From: Polytrichum commune
Lineage: Eukaryota; Streptophyta; Polytrichopsida; Polytrichales; Polytrichaceae
DNA length: 64,000 nucleotides
Assembly (NCBI GenBank): GCA_950295325.1
Contig: OX485808.1
Span: 16,326,527-16,390,526, forward strand
Reading direction: 5' to 3'
Part shown: piece after piece, positions 28,471 through 41,140 of the stretch
How the letters are laid out: the number at the start of each line of letters is the position of its first letter
How positions within the stretch are numbered: the first letter of the stretch is position 1
Translations under genes and position numbers: made by a program
Notes under the pieces: generated by a model
What the model was told of the DNA's origin: nothing
The model's database searches: none
The model's input: the letters and a program-made list of their open reading frames with translations, nothing else

Positions 28471-28735
28471 TAAGATAGGATGGCCTATAGTAAATTTTGT
28501 GCACATTGTAACGTCTCTCAAAAAGAGCAAGGAAAAGAATAAGAGGCATGATCGACTCAACCTTGAGCCTTATATGCTTGTATGATCTAAGAGTTGAAGA
28601 TGTCCTCAACTAGTCCTCAAGCATATAATTAATTGGCTCTCTCTCCATGCCCTCGGTGCGAGTAAAAAGCTCTTAACTAATGGTCATTACTTACGAGATG
28701 AGAACATCATGTAACACCATAGTCCCAACTAAGTG

Positions 28736-28803
28736 AGGGAAGCTATCTTATGAGCGATGAGCAGTGAGCGGTGAGCGGTGAGCAGTAACACATGAGCAAT
28801 GAG
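28736..28803 (+). repeat. Left terminal inverted repeat of the MULE
   Basis: AGGGAAGCTATCTTATGAGC followed by GAT/CAGT/CGGT-ending GAGC heptamers and spaced GAGCAAT units. The heptamers are candidate transposase-binding subterminal repeats. Confidence 0.85.
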
Positions 28804-28953
28804 CAGTAACATATGAGCAATGAATCCAAATTTAGTAAAGACACACGGGTTTAGGGTTTACAACCAAATTTTTGACAAATTAATTGCATATTTTCAATTA
28901 TAAATTGCCAATATTTTAAATGAAGCACAAGTGAAAGGGCCCTATTTCCATGG

Positions 28954-29140
28954 ATCATTTAGAACACTTTCAATCCATTGCTGATTTTTATTATAATAAT
29001 TCAAACCAATACATGTCATATATTGACATCCTTATACATGTAGCTACAACTAGCACTTGTACAACTACTCACATTCTACAACACCAGCAAATTCAAGTAG
29101 GTGCATAACCTCATTATACATATATGTCGGTGCCATAATT
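28954..29140. repeat. Second copy of the transposase 3' end (candidate spare terminal exon)
   Basis: Duplicates 29,527-29,710, the 3' end of the transposase gene. On the minus strand it can be read back to an acceptor-like TTTTGTAG at about 29,190, encoding MGLYSTREQFEWLTIM, then APTYMYNEVMHLLEFAG, then VVECE and a stop. This parallels APTYTYNEVMRLLELAG plus IVECE in the main gene. The upstream residues differ from the main gene, so the copy derives from a related element rather than from simple local duplication. Confidence 0.7.
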
Positions 29141-29224
29141 GTGAGCCACTCAAACTGCTCACGGGTTGAATAAAGGCCCATAATCTACAAAAGAAAGAAA
29201 ATTATATATTAGAAATAGTGAATA

Positions 29225-29450
29225 TGTAGGTAGCTACTAGGTTTTGAGACATCTGCCTGTGGATGCGAGTTGTGTAAGAGACTGGTATTAGGTCTGGATC
29301 AACCCGGGTTCGAATCCGGTTGGTTACATTGACTGGTGCTATCCCAAATTGAGCTAGTGACAAAGCAGGAATAATCTATAGGCGGATACCAAGAAGACAT
29401 TACTACGCGGATGTGCGTAGAATCTTCTTAACTATTAATTATTTTTAGAA
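29225..29450 (+). mobile_element. tRNA-derived SINE-like fragment
   Basis: Contains GGTTCGAATCC at about 29,307-29,317, an exact internal pol III B-box, with an A-box-like TGGATGCGAGTTG about 40 nt upstream. The surrounding sequence does not fold as a complete tRNA that I can draw, so a SINE head is more likely than a tRNA gene. It sits between the two copies of the transposase 3' end. Confidence 0.4.
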
Positions 29451-29640
29451 ACGTGTTATTATTTATCCGTGTGAATCAATCAAACCACACATGGTTGGGT
29501 CGCAGTCTAAATAAAAATGAAGTTACTGAATCATTTGAAATACTTTCAGTCCACTGCTAATTTTTATTATAATAATCCAAACCAAAACATGTCATTTATT
29601 GACATTCAAATATATGTTGCTTAATAGAACACTTGCAATA

Positions 29641-32600
29641 CTACTCACATTCTACAATACCAGCAAGTTCAAGTAGTCGCATGACCTCATTATAGGTATA
29701 TGTAGGTGCATGAATGAACTTGTCACTCTCGTAATCCACTTTGCACAAAAATCTAAACACATAATAAAGATGTTTACAATACACCCATTTTCCTTTCTTT
29801 CCCAATGCATGAGAGGACATTTTCGTGAAATCTGAACATGTGCAATGCGGGATATCGCCAATTGTGACATGATAGGTGATATCCTGCTTGGAGACAATGT
29901 TGATTATCACTCCAAAGCCCGGATATGGAATGGCAGTGACCCCAACCACATAGTAACCTTCCATGAGTCCGGCGCTCTCCCATTTGTTTTTGTGATCCGC
30001 CAGAGGTGCTGTTGGATTACGACGAACTGTCTTCCCAAATCTGAATGTAGGGTGGGTGTCTGGGTTTGGTGGCATAGAAAAATGCGAGCGAGGGATGGGA
30101 AGAGTTGCGATTGTTGAAAGCCTATGACGAGGAGACAATGCCTCCTTCTGCTGTAGTTGAAATCCAACATCTTCAAGTGCCAAAACCTCCTCTCTCGATA
30201 GATTGGTACCTATTTTCACTGGCCACGTGTTGGGTACTATAGGCCAGTCCAACACATATTTCTTCTTACTGCCACTCACACAACGTTTGATGTCGTCAGG
30301 ACAAAACCAAAATTCATACTCCACATTGTTGGGAGAGCGAAATTCCTTCCTGAGCCCTTTGTATGTTGGAGCAGGTGTGCCATGTTTCCCAGTCCCGACT
30401 TTGGAATTGCACATAGTCCCTGTAATAGCCTGCAGTGCCCAACAACGTTTGGCTGAGTTGGGTGGCAATCTTGCAATGTGCCACTTAGAAGCAAGACAAT
30501 CAATCTCTAACACGGATGTAGTATGAACCACACCATGAATTGCAGAACTCAACGATTCCTCTATGCGTTGACAAGTTGCTCGAGTGTTGGGACGAGGAAT
30601 GAAATAGTTCACTTTGTCGGGTCGATGAGAGTCACAATCAGCACCCGGTGGTAGGTTGAGTTTGCGGTTGGTGGAACCAAAGAGCTCTGACCCTTCCAAT
30701 GCACAATCTCTCGTGTTGACGTCTTCTGCCCCTGGATAAGACTTCATGGCATCGGCCAACATTTTTGGATCTCCACACCTAGCAGTCGCTTTGAGTTTCA
30801 AGGATGCCGAATCATAACCTTTACCATCAGACCCCCCTTTCAACCATGTCCGGTAATTTGCAATTTGCATGAAGGCACGAATCATGTCGTCCACTGTAGC
30901 TTCATATAAACAAGTCATCTTGTTGCCGGACTGTTGAAGCCATTTGTTGTGTACAGTCTCTGCAAAGTTGCATGTTGGCATTTCCGCACGTTCTTCTATT
31001 GTCATATCTTATGAACAACACACAAATATGAGGATAAGAAAAATAGAAGATATATATAACAATGGAAGAAAAATGAATGACATTGAAGAATGAAATTTGA
31101 TATGTACTTACAAATAGCATATGACCACCCCATTGTCTGTAACAAAAATGCCAAAAACCCAACCACTCTGAAAGGCCAAGGATGCCTTCTTCTGAGGCAG
31201 CTCCGGATGACAACCACCAAGAACGAATCACATGATACTTAGTCTCGGCGTCGTCCATTGTTTTTACGTCTTTGTAATCATTGCATATTTGCTTGTATTG
31301 AAACTGCAAGGATGGTTTGATATACTTTTGGGTCACCTTATCCAAGCTCGCAGACCAATGGAAAAAACATGTACACTCACGTGCAACCATGGGTAGACTT
31401 GGATCACTATCCCCGTAAATCGCCCTCACCACATTCCAATTAGCTTGAGCACTATTAGCCATAAACCCTTTGAAGTTTAGGTTTGATACACCATTTTCTG
31501 CTATGACTTTATTCAAATTTTCCCAAAAGAGAATTTGTGCTGCACCATCTTCAGATTGCATGTCAGAACACGCAATAGTCAACACTTTACAGTATCGACT
31601 ATCGTACACATGGCAAGCCATGGTCGTCCAGTCCTTCAAACGTTTGACATGGTCAAATATAATCCATGAATTCTCCATGTCCCCACCGATTTGCATTCTC
31701 TTCACAAGCTCCACACCACTACTTGGAAGGTCTACAGACATCTTGAAAACAAACACTTTGTCCTTTGATTGCCCTGAAAACCGACTACCATGGACGAACT
31801 TGAAAGCAGAGTGGTCTTTGAGTGCCATAATACTATTTATAGTTCCCATTCCACTACGCAAAAAACGCTTTGATCCGGATACAAAGTTACGACAATTCGG
31901 GGACGCAAGAGTGCTGAATTTGTCCATGACGACCTCTAGGGATGAACCAACCAAGTGATGGCCTTCGACATTTGCGGGAGATTTGAGAAGGTAATCGGCC
32001 AAGAATTGTTTGCTTGCTGCCATAACTATGGTTGAATTTTTGGCTGTGGGTGTTTTCAATACTTCATTTGCAACGCACTGGTATGCCATGTCTAATGACT
32101 CACAGTATGTGCCATTGGCCACAGGGTGATCATGTACACCAATATGAATGCAAGCCCTGGACATTCCAACAGATGTGAAATGGATGTATAGGATTCGAGC
32201 ATGACATAAAGCAATGCACACAGGTGTGGAACGACATACCTTACACTCGACAGTGGACCTAGAAGGAGGAACATTATCCACAGCAAATGGGAGAGGAGTT
32301 GAACCGGCCCATTCAGTGTTGTTCCGGAGGCCCCCATTGCGATTCATGTAATTACAGTAGTCATTAGGACATTGGAGATGACCAGCACATGTGGAACACC
32401 GGAAGGACAATCCAAAATCATTTTGGATATTGGTGGTTTTGGTGGTGCACCAAGGGTGACCGTCGCACATCTTGTCCATGCCGTCCATTGAGCGGCCATA
32501 CATACTTGGAGCTTTAAGTGTCACAGGGGGTAAGAGAAACAAAACATCACCATTAAGAAAAGATGGTAAGTACTTGACATCATGAACATCTATACTATCA

Positions 32601-33247
32601 AAATCAATGGATGCGAGATCTGACTTTGATCTTTTTCTAGACTTTGTAAGCTTCAAAGGATCAACGATAGTCAACCCTATAGATGAAGGTGAAGGGTGTA
32701 GTGGAGGACGTTGAGAAGGTGAGAGCTGGGGAACCAAACTCTTGTACATAGGACCGCATGGAGATTTGGCTACATGTATAGGAAGTTGTGAAGAAGTGGA
32801 ATGAAGAATTTTAAATGGAAACGGCGATGTGTTTGAAAGATCAACAGATGCACAAATGTCATCTTCCGAATATGATAGCACAAACACACAGTCATCAGTG
32901 GGTTCAAATTTAACATGTGCGACATAGGGAATTTGAACGGTGGATGTACCGGATTCGTTTGTCAAGAGGACAGTTGAAGCTTGCATCTGAGATTCAGAAA
33001 GACCTATTACCCTAAATGAACCAGGTCCTAAGATCCACATAAAACCAACCTCGGTTCTGTTTTTTTTAACCAAAACCGTTTCATACACCTCTCCATTTGC
33101 AGAATACATCTCCTGCTCTAAATACATGGTTCCTATCTGGAGGTTGAATCTCAGACTAAGCAAATCCTCTGAGACATTAACATGACCATCATCTTGAAGT
33201 TGCAAAATGAAGGGAACAAAAGATCCGTGAGCTCTAATGGTAGCCAT
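29641..33247 (-). CDS. MULE transposase with SWIM zinc finger, two exons
   Basis: Catalyses cut-and-paste transposition of the host MULE. The start is taken at MATIRAHGSF (33,247), following a short leader frame. Exon 1 is open from 33,247 to about 31,135. It holds an N-terminal beta-rich region, a Cys/His-rich putative zinc module (C-D-G-H-P-W-C ... FRCSTCAGHLQC) near residue 270, then the transposase core: SWIIFDHVKRLKDWTTMACH with the first candidate catalytic Asp, and MANSAQANWNVVRAIYGD. A short intron (about 31,005-31,135) precedes exon 2, open from about 31,004 to 29,641. Exon 2 ends with the SWIM finger: C-T-C (HCTCSDF) and, 24 residues on, C-K-H (YCKHLYYVFRFL), matching CxCx(n)CxH. 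Phase at the intron works with a donor inside TGGGGTGGTC but not with the stronger GTAAGT site a few bases on. Apart from that junction no stop interrupts about 1,200 codons, so this gene looks much better preserved than its partner. Confidence 0.85.
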
Positions 33248-33996
33248 GGAGAAGAAGGAAAATATGAACAACACATGACAATAATGTTATATCAACATCG
33301 CTTTTGTATTGAATGATGGAGAATATAATAATTGATGTAAATTAAAAGAGGTGATACCATAACATCCAATAATACAAAAGGAGACAGATCATAATAGTAG
33401 ACAGAGAATATTTGCAAGGAAAACATAGAATCCTAAACCAGATCCCAAAAAATATCTCCTTTAGAAACTAAGCCATAGGAAACTTGAACCCACAAGGGAG
33501 TTGTCTAATATAAGATTATCACATGGGAGAAATACGGGCACGGATATCATGGAGAAAACATTGTCAAATAATAAACAAGTTGGCAGAGTTTTAAAATACG
33601 ACTGTGTAGGCTGGATGTAGATGCAGGAACAATTAAAATTGGCCGGCAAAGTAAATGATTGGCCATTATAAATAGAACAAAGTCAATGTGGTAGGTTGGG
33701 ATATCAGAGAAATTTGGCGGATATAATAAAAATAGAAGTAGAGTGAAAAACGCGTTAAAACAACTTGATCATTGGACGCCAATTGCAACACTGATGATCG
33801 TAATGTGCGCTAGGTTTAAGTAAGCTCTAAACACTAAACTAATGTATGAAAGTGGAGTGGTAGAAGATATATCATAGACATCAATGATAGTGGAACATGT
33901 AGAGAGAACACTAGTGAGGCGGAAAAGAAGACATAGGAAGGCGGAGGACGATGAAGGTGCAGATAGCATGCAGACAATGGTATTTCGGAGTCGGAA
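33248..33996. promoter_or_regulatory. Divergent promoter region of the MULE
   Basis: About 750 bp between the transposase start (minus) and the first possible exon of the partner gene (plus). AT-rich with no open frame of note. By position it must hold the promoters of both divergent genes. No specific binding site recognised. Confidence 0.4.
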
Positions 33997-35458
33997 ATGA
34001 AGACGAGTTCACAAAACAGAAGAAACAAAAAGGTAAGTCAGCTTCTGAAATTGTTTGATTTGAAATTATTTTGTTATGTATTCTTTAACAAGATGTTGTT
34101 TGTTTATCTTGTTCGAAATATTAATATGGTTGATTGTATATATTTTTTTATTATATTATATATGTATTTAGTTGAATTATGATGGGTATTAACACATATA
34201 TATTGTCAGGTGCTAGTAATGTGATGTTGACGATCTTCTTTTGAAGAACCAAAATTTCTAGCAAGTCCATCACCTTCACAAAACCTCCCTATCTATGCTG
34301 AGACCGTGGCTTCTGTTTGGAGTTCATAAATTTAGTGGCCGAATCATTATTAACATTCATGAAATGCATGTTGTTGAGAGTAACAATGTAGTGCAGAGGG
34401 TAGCTGAATGCGTTTAAATGTAAAAGAACGTCATTTATTCATATTAACAGTGGTTACTCCAGTGAAGGGTAGGAAAAAAAAAGTAGGCGAAAAAATAGCT
34501 TTCGTTTTTCAAGTAAGAGACAATTGTCAAGGGCTAGAATGAATAGACGTATTCCTCGAATGAAATGAGTGGACCTATCAGGTACAACAAGGAATTTGAC
34601 GTACGAAGATATTGTGGCATGCGAAATGATAACGGAAGATGTCTTCGAACACCAAACTCCTACATGTGAAGCTCAACCACATATCGTCTCTGAATGCAAT
34701 GAAGAAGATGAAGAGGAGGAAGAGGACGAAGATTATGATAAAGGCATCGACGAAGAGCAAGCCACACAATACGAAAAAGAAGAACAATCTTCTGAGGCGG
34801 AATTCGAGGTAAGTTGTACGAAAGAAATGATAAGAGAAGAAATTTAAAATGAAAATAAATTTAGAGGTATATAATATATACTATATTGTACACACCAAAA
34901 ATACGATTCCAACGGTATATAGCATGAACAAAATAATTTTGTTTTGCATGTTTTAGAGCTAAAAAACAATTAGAGCATCTTAGATTCTTCTAAAATCTTC
35001 AAAACATGAAGATTTTATGCTGGAAATCTAACCATATTAGTTTTAGTAGACTTTGACGATTTATGTAAAATTGATATTATGTCCAATAATTCTGAAAAAA
35101 AATGCACTGAATGGCAAGGCTTAAATCTATGCACTAGATTTTTTGTGGAAATTAATTAGGATATTTGAAAAAGTTATAGCAAAGATTCCATAGACTGAAA
35201 TCTACCAAATTTTTACTTGTTTTTTATTTTTATTTTTTTAGAGTCCGACTTATCCTAATCTCTTGAAGCCATACTCTTCGTAATGTCTTCAGACATCCTC
35301 TTTCGAAGTGCGGCGGCAACAACATACGCAAGAAGCAAGAGCACGCACAATGGAGGATGCAGATGCTGGTACAAGTTCCAGGCGGCGACGTGGGCACATA
35401 GACAAAACGAGCAAGAGCGACAAAGAAGCTGCAACTCCAGAAAGCAACTCAAATGAAG
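33997..35458 (+). other. Candidate 5' exons of the ParB-methyltransferase gene
   Basis: Three plus-strand tracts end in good donors. (1) ATG at 33,997, basic MKTSSQNRRNKK, donor GTAAGT after 34,032. (2) About 34,569-34,808, very acidic (two long Glu/Asp runs), donor GTAAGT. (3) About 35,300-35,458, with an arginine cluster SRRRRGHIDKTSKSDKEAA resembling a nuclear localisation signal, donor GTGAGT. They lie between the divergent promoter and the conserved domains and probably form a low-complexity, nuclear-targeted N-terminus. Phase between them was not closed, so the exon chain is a proposal. Confidence 0.45.
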
Positions 35459-35479
35459 GTGAGTTTCTCTTCCAAATGG

Positions 35480-36370
35480 ATAGCCGTTAACGGCCATCCT
35501 TTCTATGATGCCCACTTATGTGTTGTAGTCTGTTTCATCTAAAAGTGTGGCCGTTAACGGCCACCCTTTGTTGCATCTTATATTTCTGAGTATATGTGTT
35601 TCTTTCTTCAAATATACACACATTTCCTTAAATTTTTTGTCCTTGAAATTTCAGACTCTTCTCCATATGTGTTTTTTTCTTCGTGTATGCACTCAATTGC
35701 TTCATTTTTTTTTCCTCCAACAAGGGCGGCCACCCTTATTCACATTTCGGATTTTTGTTCATAAGGGTTTCTTTCTACATGTACACACCCATTTCTCTTA
35801 TTTTCTGTCCTTCAATAACGGTGGCCGTTAACGGCCACCCTTATTCTTATTTCAGATTTTTTTTCCTTAGGGTTTCTTTCTACATGTACACACCCATTTC
35901 TCTTATTTTCTGTCCTTCAATAACGGTGGCCGTTAACGGCCACCCTTATTCACATTTCGGATTTTTGTTCATATGGGTTTCTTTCTACATGTATACACCC
36001 ATTTCTCTCATTTTTTTTCCTTCAATAAGGGTGGCCGTTAACGGCCACCCTTATTCTCATTTCAGATTTTTTTTTCATAAGGGTTTCTTTCTACATGTAT
36101 ACACCCATTTCTCTCATTTTCTGTCCTTCAATAAGGGTGGCCGTTAACTGCCACCCTTTTTCACATTTCGGAATTTTTTTGCATAAGGGTTTCTTTCTAC
36201 ATGTATACACCCATTTCTTTCATTTTTTTTGGCTTAAAAAAGAGTGGCCGTTAACGACCACCCTTATTCATATTTCAAATTTTGTTTCTACATGTATGCA
36301 TGCATGTGTGTATGCATTCATTTCTTTCATTTTTAATCTCCAAGAAGAGTGGCCGTTAACGGCCACCCAT
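35480..36370. repeat. Tandem array with period of about 106 bp, each unit carrying a GTTAAC-centred palindrome
   Basis: The perfect palindrome GTGGCCGTTAACGGCCAC or a close variant occurs starting at about 35,482 (imperfect), 35,547, 35,821, 35,927, 36,031, 36,137 (one base changed), 36,244 (one base changed) and 36,351. A half-palindrome (GGCGGCCACCC) lies at about 35,727. From 35,821 on the spacing is 104-107 bp, with the inter-palindrome sequence also repeated (TTTCTTTCTACATGTATACA, CACCCATTTCTCT, TTCAATAA). The array lies inside what appears to be a large intron of the partner gene. Open frames crossing it are by-products of the repeat. Confidence 0.9.
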
Positions 36371-36516
36371 ATTCAAAATTTAGACTTTTTGGGAATATGT
36401 GGTTTTCTCTCTTATGTATACTCTCACTTTCTTTAATATTTTTTCATTTTGTTTTAGTTTGCATATATGATTTTTTTCCTATGTATATATTTCTTTTGAT
36501 TTATTTTGGTTTCTCA

Positions 36517-39500
36517 AGTGGGTGATATGTTTTGTGCTTTAGATTTGGAAGTTGTACATCTTTCTGAAGATCAATTGGAGATGCAATTGCATGCATTTTT
36601 GAAGAATGAAACTGTCAACACATCTTCCCGTCTTGAACGGTTGAGGTATCAACCAAGGGCAAAATCAAAATTCAACATTCCACTATGTCAAATGATTGCA
36701 TTGCCTGTTATAAGGCTTTTTTTTTAAAATGACGTTATGAACCTGGCTGCACATTTTGTTGCTTGTGGTTATATGAAGGGCAATGGGGTTTTTATGTGGC
36801 CTTGGAAAACAATGAGGGAAAAACAGTAGATGTTACCGATAGTATCATTGAATATTGGAGTGAAAATTGGGTGAGGGCTAATGATGCCTTTGAAAAAATA
36901 TTGCAAGCTGATGAGGACCTCAAAGTTTTTTCTGGCAAAATGTTCATGGTGTGGGACGGAAATCACCGTTTGCAAGCATGGTTGCCCATTATTAATCGAA
37001 ATCACACATATGATCCGGTTTGGCATTATGCTGTTGAAAGTATTATTTTGGACGTCAAAGGAGATATTGCAACCATGTTGGCAGCTTTACATGAAGTCAA
37101 TTGGTAATTACTTCATTATTATCTTTTTATTTATTCGGTTCATTTGGTTTTTTTTATAGTTTTTTTTATTGTATATCTCTTTTCTTTGGCTTATCATTGG
37201 ATGTTTTGTTTTGACAGGAGGAACCAAAAATCTCATGTTTGTACCAATCTTGTTCATAAGCTTTTCCGCATTCAAAGCATTGCTGGACAACCACTTTCAT
37301 ATTTTGAGAAACTTGTTTCCAAAGAAGATCTTACTGCCGCTGATGGCAAACAAAAATCCAAACATAGGACTTGGTTTATTTTGACTGTTGAGGCTCTTAA
37401 TGGATTTCTATACCAGGTTATTTTTTCTGAAGTATTCGTTTTTTACGATTTTTGTTTTCTTGTATTTTTTTTATTTCGATTTCTATAACTATATTTTCTA
37501 TTGCATCTTATTTTTGTAGTGTGTGATTATTCATACTCTTATATGTTTTTTCGTTGGTGTAGCAAAAGTTGGGAGATGATGCTGCTGCTGCTCAAAGGAA
37601 ATTTTATGAGAAATATCCTGATCCTACGCATTGGACTTCGAGTGCAGTAGATGAATTTGTTTCCAAAGCTGTTGAGAGGGTGAGATTGACTTCTCATTCG
37701 GAATTGAAGAAACAACTTCCCATTGCGGATCCTAAACATTCTCCTATGTTCTTAGAGCAGGTGAAGTCTCATTATGAAACTCACAATGAGAACCCTGAGA
37801 TGACTCAAGAAAAACTTTGGATGGTAGCAACTTCGGCAATGGACACATCTATGAAGATTAAGTGGCTTGAGAGGTGGAACAGTCCCCCTGCTCTTCGTGA
37901 GGCTCTCAAGTTTCCGAAACCAAAATTCAATGATATAGAGTTTCCTAAGTGGCTTCATAAAGCTACTTGGTGGGCTCAGGTGATAATTTTTGTCCTTCTA
38001 TTATGTTTGGTTCATTTATTTTTTGTCTATATTTTTAATATATTTTTAATATTTTTTCAATCATTTAATTCTTCTAATCTTTATTTTGTATTTGGCAGTT
38101 GGCTATTGAGACCGAGAAACTCTTTGATGCTACTGTGGCTGATATGCATGTGTCCATCAACTACCTTCCAGATGGTATGGATCGTTTGCCCAGTATTTTT
38201 TATTATGTGGAGGCAATGTGCATATGATTGTGGGATACTGCATTTTTTCGTGAATTCGGTGTGGATAAGGGAGTTCACAAAAATCATAACATTGACAAGC
38301 AACTCAATTTTTATCCGGCCATGCGAAGGGTGTTTTATAGGTACTTCAAATATGTCTTATTTCCTGCGAAAGCCATTTCCAAATCTCCCATTTTTTTGGC
38401 TAATTATTTGGATATCGAAAGTGAAGAATGCATGTTCATAGAGGGGATCATAAAATCTTGGGATCCTATGCATTTTGAAAAATGTGGGTGGTATTTGGAT
38501 TGTCCTCTTAAATCACCTCTCACTTTTGATATTGCCCTTCGAGATTCCATTCAACCCGCCCTCAAGGGTACAACTAAAATTGTTCCCTCTATAATGGATG
38601 AGGATGCAGCCAAGATGCCAAAAAAAAAAGTCTAAACCTAAAAGACCAATCCTCCTCATTCATGATAGCGATGAGGATGCTCCAATTCAAAGCAGTCTCA
38701 ACAACCTTGTAGTTACTGAACCTTCTTCTTCAAATCTAGAGGCAACGTTTCATACTTCAAAGCGGTAGAAAACAACCCCTTCTCCTAACTTGGATATGCC
38801 TCCCAAGTTTAGAGGTATGATGAATATCTTGCCTCCTTTACCTGCAAATCATACATCTTCGGATTTAATCTTTAATGATTCTTTTGTGAGGATTATCGAG
38901 GATAAGAAGCAAACAAATACATTTCGTGCACCATATGACGACATTGTGGCTTTTCTATCAAAGGTGAGTTCATTTTATTTTACAATTTTTACTTTATTCA
39001 AGTTTTATAAAGTTTCACTCGTATTTTGTTACGTTATTTTATTTTTAATTTTTAATTGTCGTCTTTATTCATGAATTGTAATATTTATATTTTATCTTTG
39101 TAGGTTGGTGAAGGTAGACAATTTTTTTTTGATGGCCAATTGCAAAAGAAATCTGTTGTGGACCTCATTATTGCGGATTACCCAGATGGTCTTCGGGTTC
39201 CAGGTGTCTCGGATCCGCCATCTCAAATTCTCCCTTGGAATGCCAACATTCCAAGTTTTCTCAACATATTGATGGCATTTGCTCTTACCTATCTTCATGA
39301 TGATGGAGCATTCCTTTTGTTTTATCCTGACAGTTCTGCCGTGAAGAGAGAAGTGGCAGGATTCTTCAAAAACTATAAGTTCAAAATCAAGGATGAATGG
39401 ACTATCATTAATTCCTTGTACTTGGCAAATCCTATGAATCCGTCCAAAAATGTAAGTAGCAATTATGACATTTCATTTTGATTGGTTCATATTTGAATTT

Positions 39501-40447
39501 GTTTTTATGTGTTGTATATTTTTTAATTTCAATTTTATATTGACTTTCAGACTTTGAAGTTCAAGGCTTTGTTATTGGTTCGATCATTTTCAATTCCCAT
39601 TGCGAGGCAACCTCAAGAACTTCTGATCACTATGCATCCTTCAATTCCTGAGGTCGATTTAGCCACAGATGACGTTCTCTTCAACTCTATTACTATGGAA
39701 ACTCAATTATGTAGACAAAGAGATGGCAAGCCATGGAGGGGTGCAAAGGAGAAGTCTGAAGTTTTAATGAAGTTATTTGTTCATGGTTCGAGTTCTGTAG
39801 GCGGTATTGTGGCAGACATGACTGCTTCTACATGTATTGTATATTACAGTATCCAATTATTCGTTCATATGTTTTTTAATTCATACTTCAATGTTCGTAT
39901 TTTTCTAATTAATGTTTTGCTTCATCCAGGTTCTTCTATTAGAGCGGCTCATTCATCTAATCGTCATATTCTAGCATTAGAAAGTGATGCCGAACTCTTT
40001 GATGAGGTACTAAAACCTCTTCAAACACCTACAAAGGATACCTCATGCGGTGGTATGGACTTTGATGATGATACTCCAATAGAAGACGCTGCACTTCTTA
40101 ACTTATGTGAGTAAGTTTTTTCATTGTTTTTTTCTCAACAACTTCAATTGCAAATTCTAGATTTTGTATTCTAATTTGTTGTTACATATTCTAATACATG
40201 GTTTGTTGTTTGTAGTTGGATGAATCCATCGCCGATACAAATCTCGTCATTTTATCGGCACCGTGGATTATTGAGAAGCCCCTCTCTTAGTCCTCAGAGC
40301 CTCCCTGTGTATGCTGAGGCTTTAGCTGAAGCTTATGCTAATGCTTCATCTACTTCATCTTCAATTTCACCTTCACCTCGTAGATATTATGATACTAGAG
40401 TATGTGCTTATTTTGAACTCAATGCATCTGAGTCCGACGATATTTAA
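36517..40447 (+). pseudogene. ParB-like domain fused to beta-class DNA methyltransferase-like domain, decayed copy
   Basis: Exons by splice sites: about 36,517-37,103, 37,218-37,416, 37,563-37,979, 38,099-38,963, 39,104-39,451, 39,551-39,833, 39,930-40,110, 40,216-40,447. The first holds a ParB/Srx-like fold: IPLCQM, then VMNLAAHFVACGYMKG, and MVWDGNHRLQAW, the D-G-N-H-R signature of that superfamily. After a helical middle region and a lysine-rich stretch (KMPKKK) comes a methyltransferase-like core. It has DLIIADYPDG at about 39,162 (motif IV position, DPPY expected), a helix-strand unit LTYLHDDGAFLLFYPD, a later KALLLVRSF strand, and at 39,810-39,990 a motif X/I block, ADMTAST then SSIRA and HILALESDAELFDE, resembling FxGxGT...E. 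The order IV then I is that of beta-class N6-adenine/N4-cytosine enzymes. Disabled here: TAA at about 36,725, a one-base shift near 36,775, TGA at about 38,226, a shift in an A-run near 38,625 and TAG near 38,768. Family assignment is by motif reading only. Confidence 0.7.
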
Positions 40448-41060
40448 GTTTGTATTCATGATTTGATTTTTGAAATTTGATTTCCAAGAACTTCAACAAT
40501 TTTAATCTACTACCCGATTTATATCTACAATCCATTTTTGTTGTTCTTTATGTTTTGGACTTCGTAAATGTCACCCTCATGATGGTGTTATGATGTATTT
40601 AAATTTTACATTGATGTGTATTATAGTGAGACATTCTAACATGCTACACTTGTTTTCAACATGAGTTTGCTTACACATTGTCTCCAATTACATTATTATT
40701 ATCTCAACAATTAAATGTATATTAGTTCATTTTTAGTACAAAATTGTTATAGCAACATTCTCATTTGTTGTTCATTTGGACTATAGACCCTTACATGTAA
40801 TTCCACAGTCATAGGCCCCCAACGGATTTACAAACCATAACCGGGAAAAAATTGAAGGCTCACATGTTCACGCTCGCATGCTCACATACTAGCAACCCCG
40901 AGTCGTGTACATATTGGTCTTTTTCATTGCTCACTACTTGCAATCTAGCATTCATATTATTTGTCCTCCCCAATCTTCTTATTATTGAACCCTAAAAAAT
41001 TATTTCTTTAGGCCACGGTTATAGGATACTCGGGGTCCTATTACCAAATATTTTGTTTTC

Positions 41061-41128
41061 TTCACCGCTCACAAATTACCGCTCATCGCTCACCGCTCAC
41101 TGCTCACCGCTCACAAGATAGCACTCCC
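41061..41128 (-). repeat. Right terminal inverted repeat of the MULE
   Basis: Mirror of the left end: CCGCTCAT/CACCGCTCAC heptamer run leading to ACAAGATAGCACTCCC, followed by the flanking 12-mer CCCAACTAAGTG. Confidence 0.85.
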
Positions 41129-41140
41129 CCCAACTAAGTG

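Follow-up and report, generated by a model that had tools for sequence, protein, structure and literature searches.

The stretch of DNA analysed here (the window) is 64,000 nt of the moss Polytrichum commune (G000:C6:16326527-16390526; the genome searched comprises 408 Mb). At about 28,736-41,128 it holds a transposon with two divergent genes between inverted ends. One gene, on the minus strand, encodes a transposase, and the other, which we call the partner gene, is multi-exon and occupies about 36.5-40.4 kb of the plus strand. The element belongs to an autonomous kind of DNA transposon with two genes and Mutator-like ends; the window copy is decayed. We refer to eight subfamilies of the partner as A (the window type) to H. 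The features of the window element are the following.

28724-28735, no strand: left target-site duplication, 12 matching letters (10-bp CCAACTAAGT at 28725-28734 by copy comparison)
28736-28802, plus strand: left terminal inverted repeat, 7-bp TGAGCGG-type units
29641-31008, minus strand: transposase, C-terminal open reading frame (ORF) with a CxC...CxH (SWIM-like) motif; SWIM E-value (E) 0.79, below cut-off
30902-33286, minus strand: transposase, main ORF, 794 amino acids (aa), putative DDE region
35464-36440, no strand: intergenic tandem array, 105-bp period (TRF 35727-36390), palindrome GGTGGCCG-TTAA-CGGCCACC
36500-37107, plus strand: initial part of the partner gene, containing GNHR; reading frame disrupted in the window copy
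37218-38635, plus strand: partner gene, middle exons, in-frame stop at ~38,225-38,227 in the window copy
39104-39481, plus strand: methyltransferase-like domain, exon with the altered motif IV (IADYPDG)
39527-40114, plus strand: methyltransferase-like domain, motif X and motif I exons (WRGAKEK, ADMTAST, HILALESD)
40175-40447, plus strand: partner gene, C-terminal tail exon
41062-41128, minus strand: right terminal inverted repeat
41129-41140, no strand: right target-site duplication (10-bp reading 41130-41139)

An earlier note, made from the letters of the window, had described one element with matched terminal inverted repeats around two divergent genes, and this description holds. The ends at 28742-28802 and 41062-41122 are 84% complementary over 61 nt, the transposase ORFs and the multi-exon gene lie on opposite strands, and other genomic copies with both genes inside the same inverted ends were found. 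Window-type ends also occur on B, F, H and further A elements. The 12-bp flanking duplication of the same note, CCCAACTAAGTG, does match in all 12 letters as first read, but its true length is 10 bp. A 10-bp duplication was present in 7 of 7 elements with both flanks read (the window, C1:65020, C3:34397 with 9 of 10 letters matching, C6:36477, the F element at C1:9648, the H element at C1:63980, and the A-type remnant L098). Because the six other elements show 10 bp, we read the window duplication as CCAACTAAGT with two chance letters. Target-site duplications of Mutator-like elements (MULEs) range from 8 to 11 bp.

The proposed SWIM-type MULE transposase agrees with the ends, the 10-bp duplication and the CxC...CxH motif, and lacks any match to a Pfam transposase model. 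None matched the A, B, C and D transposases or the H C-terminal ORF; the SWIM model gave E 0.79 for the window and 0.076 for H, both below cut-off, and the DDE-like and CxC...CxH motifs were recognised by eye only. The term Mutator-like therefore rests on the ends, the duplication length and these motifs. A 183-bp direct repeat (83%) at 28951-29133 and 29527-29709 sits just within the left end, close to where the transposase gene finishes.

In the window, the partner gene is a broken, decayed copy. Its first exon shifts frame in comparison with the copy L025, and comparison with L010 reveals an in-frame stop further on, in a later exon (~38,225-38,227).

Two halves of the partner protein

The C-terminal half of the partner is a beta-class N6/N4 DNA amino-methyltransferase fold. 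The F copy L064 contains the entire domain in one unjoined 577-aa ORF, which matched PF01555 above the cut-off, at E=1.1e-7 over positions 1-216 of 221. Joined exons of B, C and D matched the same model at E 1.2e-4, 7.1e-6 and 1.6e-8, D alone being above the cut-off. In the PDB profile search, DpnA (3.3e-6) and CcrM (1.4e-3) were matched over residues 17-234. The top 17 Foldseek matches were all DNA amino-methyltransferases of the beta class, with a low-confidence query model (mean predicted local distance difference test, pLDDT, 42). The methyltransferase-like domain with motif IV before motif I that had been read in the window is borne out, as the order IV then X/I is that of the beta class. 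Motif I and the acidic residue following it are present (alignment A2), and motif I is kept in C, F and H as GTG or STG. Similarity of this half to phage methyltransferases was weak, with a best E of 7e-4 among the matches listed.

The canonical motif IV of beta-class N6/N4 amino-methyltransferases is (D/N/S)PP(Y/F/W), and loss of its stacking aromatic residue is expected to abolish amino methylation. We took a census of motif IV in 38 rows representing 37 places (L004 and L010 are one locus) from subfamilies A, B, C, D, E, F and H, not G; it demanded the pattern x-x-P-x-G, and copies departing from it were not counted. The forms were EYPDG (14), DYPDG (9), DIPEG (6), DIPDG (3) and QFPDG (2), with DLPEG, DVPEG, VIPEG and DIPYG once each. 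Canonical DPP[YFW] was found in 0 of 37 places, and the aromatic position was occupied by D or E in 36 and by Y in one. The first D was lost as well in the QFPDG of H and the VIPEG of one E-type copy. The partner, though related to the DNA methyltransferases of bacteria, is thus probably unable to methylate. METTL14-type pseudo-methyltransferases likewise have a conserved fold and an altered motif IV (EPPL), and differ in class and context.

The earlier note had suggested that the partner marks or protects element DNA, and the non-canonical motif IV in 37 of 37 places weakens the methylation version of this idea. An active DNA methyltransferase whose catalytic motif has become D-x-P-[DE]-G, and which protects or labels element DNA, perhaps at CG-N4-CG sites, is an improbable account of the partner. 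The full-length PF01555 match across motif IV to I in the DIPYG copy L064 would agree with activity, as would the retention of motif I in C, F and H and the invariance of D20, L21, A24, P27 and G29 in and around motif IV across nine rows of A2. The candidate sites upstream of the partner gene (described below) are moreover short palindromes, which many DNA methyltransferases of such kind use. The acidic residue at the aromatic position in 36 of 37 places and the lost first D in QFPDG and VIPEG argue in the opposite direction. Because motif IV is non-canonical, we rank methylation marking below a DNA-binding role.

The first half of the partner carries KMFxVWDGNHRxxAW in most copies, which resembles box II of ParB. 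GNHR is present in at least 90% of the rows of alignment A1, with the variants NENHR, DDNYR and GDHR in A1 and GNHP in F; the ParB/Srx box II motif is G-x-[HR]-R. A ParB/Srx-like domain had been proposed on MVWDGNHRLQAW, and beyond these letters it found no support in the Pfam, PDB, profile-profile and structure tests. Pfam, NCBIfam and PHROGs gave no ParB match for the first half, and a PDB profile search gave no match. Profile-profile comparison (hhalign) with 15 phage and bacterial ParB domains gave a probability under 1%, and the AlphaFold model of the first half (pLDDT 47) had no fold match. The best other Pfam match was NTR2 in an H copy, at E 0.0015 and below cut-off. No microbial relative of the first half was confirmed by tblastn in viral or genome contigs, and there was no phage match. 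As the profile diversity was low (Neff 2.4-2.6) and the model poor, a distant relation to ParB may nevertheless exist.

Fusions of ParB and N6_N4 domains are reported in phages in extracts of PMC12704722. The phage and bacterial ParB-N6/N4 fusions resemble the partner in having a domain with the G-x-[HR]-R motif followed by a beta-class methyltransferase. The plant partner differs by its introns, long middle region, altered motif IV and the lack of measurable ParB similarity. Across the moss genome, PF02195 matched solely on the small contigs C10, C12 and C23, which look bacterial or phage (L060-L063) and are probably assembly contamination. On C12, one ORF (L060) is a ParB-methyltransferase fusion with an intact CDPPYG motif.

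Mobile elements with methyltransferases are known in other eukaryotes: excerpts of PMC5890265 describe DIRS retrotransposons with Dam-like enzymes and dinoflagellate and charophyte elements with DNA methyltransferases (DNMTs). As far as these excerpts go, the likeness is that a eukaryotic mobile element encodes a protein of methyltransferase fold. The moss element differs in being of the cut-and-paste type by its ends and in having a domain without the canonical catalytic motif.

Recurrent pairing, palindrome arrays and exchange

The methyltransferase-fold gene is a recurrent companion of this transposase. We searched the genome with single exons and scored the best 150 of 1,851 transposase, 1,083 motif IV exon, 1,151 GNHR exon and 775 H-type exon candidates. 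Among the 150 transposase loci scored, 112 had, no farther than 14 kb upstream, a divergent partner, which was of type H at 89, A at 12 and F/G at 11; at 0 of the 112 did two partner types occur together. When the transposase places were shifted, the mean was 0.63 and the maximum 4 in 300 trials. The count took 76 GNHR and 27 methyltransferase places of type A, 138 of 150 H matches (12 low-identity ones were dropped), and, as F/G-like, 13 of 83 PF01555 matches, five of which were read. It replaces the counts made before the H partner was known (16 of 49 methyltransferase places and 30 of 150 transposase places paired). Of the 38 loci without an A, H or F/G partner, five (ranks 123, 128, 132, 140 and 143) have a divergent partner match of another type. 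Pairing was also seen in the B, C and D elements read, whose transposases are 42-43% identical to that of the window, and one E-type locus had no transposase in the stretch read.

Mutator-like elements have a tendency to pick up fragments of host genes, as stated in excerpts of PMC6446971, so the partner might be a captured host or microbial gene fragment, a chance cargo as in Pack-MULEs. This is scarcely credible and already contradicted, since the same gene recurs in the same place and orientation at 112 of 150 loci, seven diverged subfamilies are paired, and dN/dS, the ratio of nonsynonymous to synonymous substitution rates, is low in C copies. The C-type first exons gave dN/dS of 0.07-0.14 at dS 0.40-0.60, in a comparison made without the rows of L006, L007 and L008 and with dS mostly saturated between subfamilies.

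The regions C53:15408-28816 and C2:19223605-19237013 have the same exon matches, and because the spacing is identical, C53 probably duplicates C2 as a haplotig. In the F element at C1:9656501-9660600 (L080:1344-2260), extra ORFs lie between the transposase and the partner, with kinase-like letters by eye (HCDLSFTNI ... GDWG) and no Pfam match.

Upstream of the partner gene, elements of all eight subfamilies carry arrays with a CG-N4-CG core, different in each and palindromic in seven. In the window, the 105-bp tandem repeat between the genes centres on GGTGGCCGTTAACGGCCACC, and perfect palindromes stand at 35547, 35820, 35925, 36024 and 36349. The other palindromes are GGGTGCCG-TTAA-CGGCACCC in C (L018), CCTGTGCG-TTAA-CGCACAGG in H (two loci), TGTTTGTGCG-CTGG-CGCACAAACA in F, GGGTTTCG-GTAC-CGAAACCC in G, GTGTCTCG-GTCC-CGAGACAC in D and GGGTATTGGCG-GCAC-CGCCAATACCC in E; the B version, around GGCCG-GCAC-CGGCT, is imperfect. 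Each array locus contains 3-9 copies of its own perfect palindrome in A (3 loci), C (L018), D (L019, L015), E, G and H (2 loci), and the F array contains 5. Shuffled loci averaged 0-1.0 with all palindromes counted (five shuffles, F left out). The 51.6 kb of the window outside the element contain 9 palindromes, no two alike.

For A and H, the palindromes were located genome-wide. Exact sites number 143 for the A palindrome and 0 for its reversed control; of the first 50 sites listed, 47 have an A partner gene no more than 6 kb away, 17 of these being near a scored transposase too, and 0 are near H. The H palindrome has 490 exact sites and its reversed control 0, with 42 of the first 50 listed near an H partner and 0 near A. 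The three listed A sites without a partner match are all in L098. This A-type element (L098:157-5785, C2:30651501-30658000) has both ends and a 10-bp duplication; in this one case, the array survives and most of both genes is gone.

A second candidate site of H, GTTTGGGTCG-NN-CGACCCAAAC, was rejected: it has a CG-N2-CG core and 9,231 sites genome-wide, many of the listed ones clustered away from scored H genes. In L091, 14 of 23 palindromes are of this kind, ten of the 14 outside the element. Its tandem clusters (L091:8448-9253, L092:5574-5890, L095:4342-4586) represent a second, far larger palindromic repeat family.

The partner and the array have a different history from the transposase. A and H transposases share 88% aa identity over 461 N-terminal residues and 95% over the C-terminal ORF, and A and F share 75% over the N-terminal part and 89% over the C-terminal ORF. 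Among the A, F and H partners, identity is 27-34% in the methyltransferase domains and 38-48% in the first halves. The DNA similarity of A and H ends at ~34,041 of the window and returns at ~40,951, and therefore the array and partner were replaced as a block. In ten-row trees, the A, F, G and H transposases stand apart from those of B, C and D, whereas the partner tree places A together with B and C. Imposing either arrangement on the other data set was rejected by the approximately unbiased (AU) test (p 1.75e-5 and 5.7e-61), with groupings picked after the pairwise identities had been seen, F as a long branch, and partly incomplete rows (A_C3 transposase 35% filled, G partner partial). From this conflict, we conclude that partner and array were exchanged between elements. 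Separately, an H-type exon is identical over 105 aa at C1:63990311, C1:48089105 and C1:64526215, so the H subfamily probably moved recently.

The exchange also bears on the idea that the partner is a transposition co-factor acting on the ends or on integration, the arrays being promoter or insulator repeats or hairpin-prone satellites and not its binding sites. The partner would then resemble mudrB of MuDR. The divergent two-gene layout, the recurrent pairing, the purifying selection on C-type copies and the presence of palindromic arrays elsewhere in the genome are consistent with it. Yet the ends are common to A, B, F and H while the partner was exchanged, so the partner does not track the ends, and the arrays of eight subfamilies share one core. 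We consider a co-factor role unlikely, though a serious contender.

Possible role of the partner and comparison with VANC

Our favoured reading, held tentatively and at a little short of even chances, is that the partner is a sequence-specific DNA-binding accessory, a dead methyltransferase that is VANC-like and exchanged as a cassette with its array. A catalytically dead methyltransferase would have turned into a DNA-binding protein that, probably as a dimer, binds the arrayed palindromes in the control region common to both genes. The bound partner may keep the element active by anti-silencing or transcriptional activation, like VANC for the VANDAL elements. Swapping partner and array together would change the recognition code of an element and might let it escape host silencing. 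A fold with an altered motif, under selection at least in C, together with arrays of symmetric sites that are exchanged along with it, makes a DNA-binding accessory the best explanation in our view.

Several observations weigh against this reading. The DIPYG copy L064, which has Y in motif IV, is also the source of the full-length PF01555 match; its three F relatives carry D at that position. In A, motif I has partly degenerated (TAST), which makes binding of S-adenosylmethionine unsure. Selection appears weaker in B copies (dN/dS 0.28-0.80, dS up to 0.12) and in A copies (0.52-0.80, three usable pairs, dS 0.026). Several array loci and a genome-wide search support A and H only, and B to G are represented by one array-bearing element each. 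Three of four C-type loci lack the L018 array in the stretch examined (L014 has no perfect palindrome, L013 one similar site and L017 another palindrome), and the palindromes of the D-type L016 differ from those of L019 and L015. Half-site similarity was not significantly correlated with partner distance (Mantel r 0.34, p 0.065, 7 elements); for transposase clade, the values were r 0.09 and p 0.37. Since the palindromes adjoin the partner gene, their co-occurrence may be mere linkage. As GTTTGGGTCG-NN-CGACCCAAAC is a dispersed repeat, palindromic arrays are not unique to these elements.

The analogy with VANC, which the earlier note had raised, is now stronger than first argued, because the elements carry their own tandem site arrays in a non-coding region. 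In the portions of PMC5735166 and PMC10398659 available, the VANC targets of Arabidopsis VANDAL elements are short motifs, specific to each family, that stand in tandem repeats within non-coding DNA, and VANC proteins and their motifs diverge fast. Compared by these described features and not by sequence, both systems have an extra protein of a Mutator-like element and family-specific site arrays; in the moss, this trait was seen by genome-wide search for A and H and in one element each for B to G, with the exceptions above. It is this kind of target that suggests anti-silencing by the moss partner. The systems also differ. A methyltransferase fold is present in the moss partner and is not mentioned for VANC in those portions; the 9-base motif of VANC21 is arrayed in a single orientation, whereas most moss sites are palindromic; and loss of DNA methylation is demonstrated for VANC, whereas the moss partner would act in this way by analogy.

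We found no published description of this element in the open-access literature searched. A wider proposal, which we regard as rather doubtful, is that these elements represent a further anti-silencing or self-recognition system, the second in plant transposons and of independent origin. In it, a microbial-type pseudo-methyltransferase would read CG-N4-CG palindromes, and a swapped key-and-lock cassette would give one transposase lineage many codes. If VANC proves unrelated, anti-silencing by arrayed sites would have arisen at least twice. If the partner binds the palindromes, the moss elements would amount to some eight natural protein-site pairs that differ in specificity on one scaffold and are exchanged between elements under host pressure. 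How transposons change their recognition codes would become directly testable by binding assays and methylation maps.

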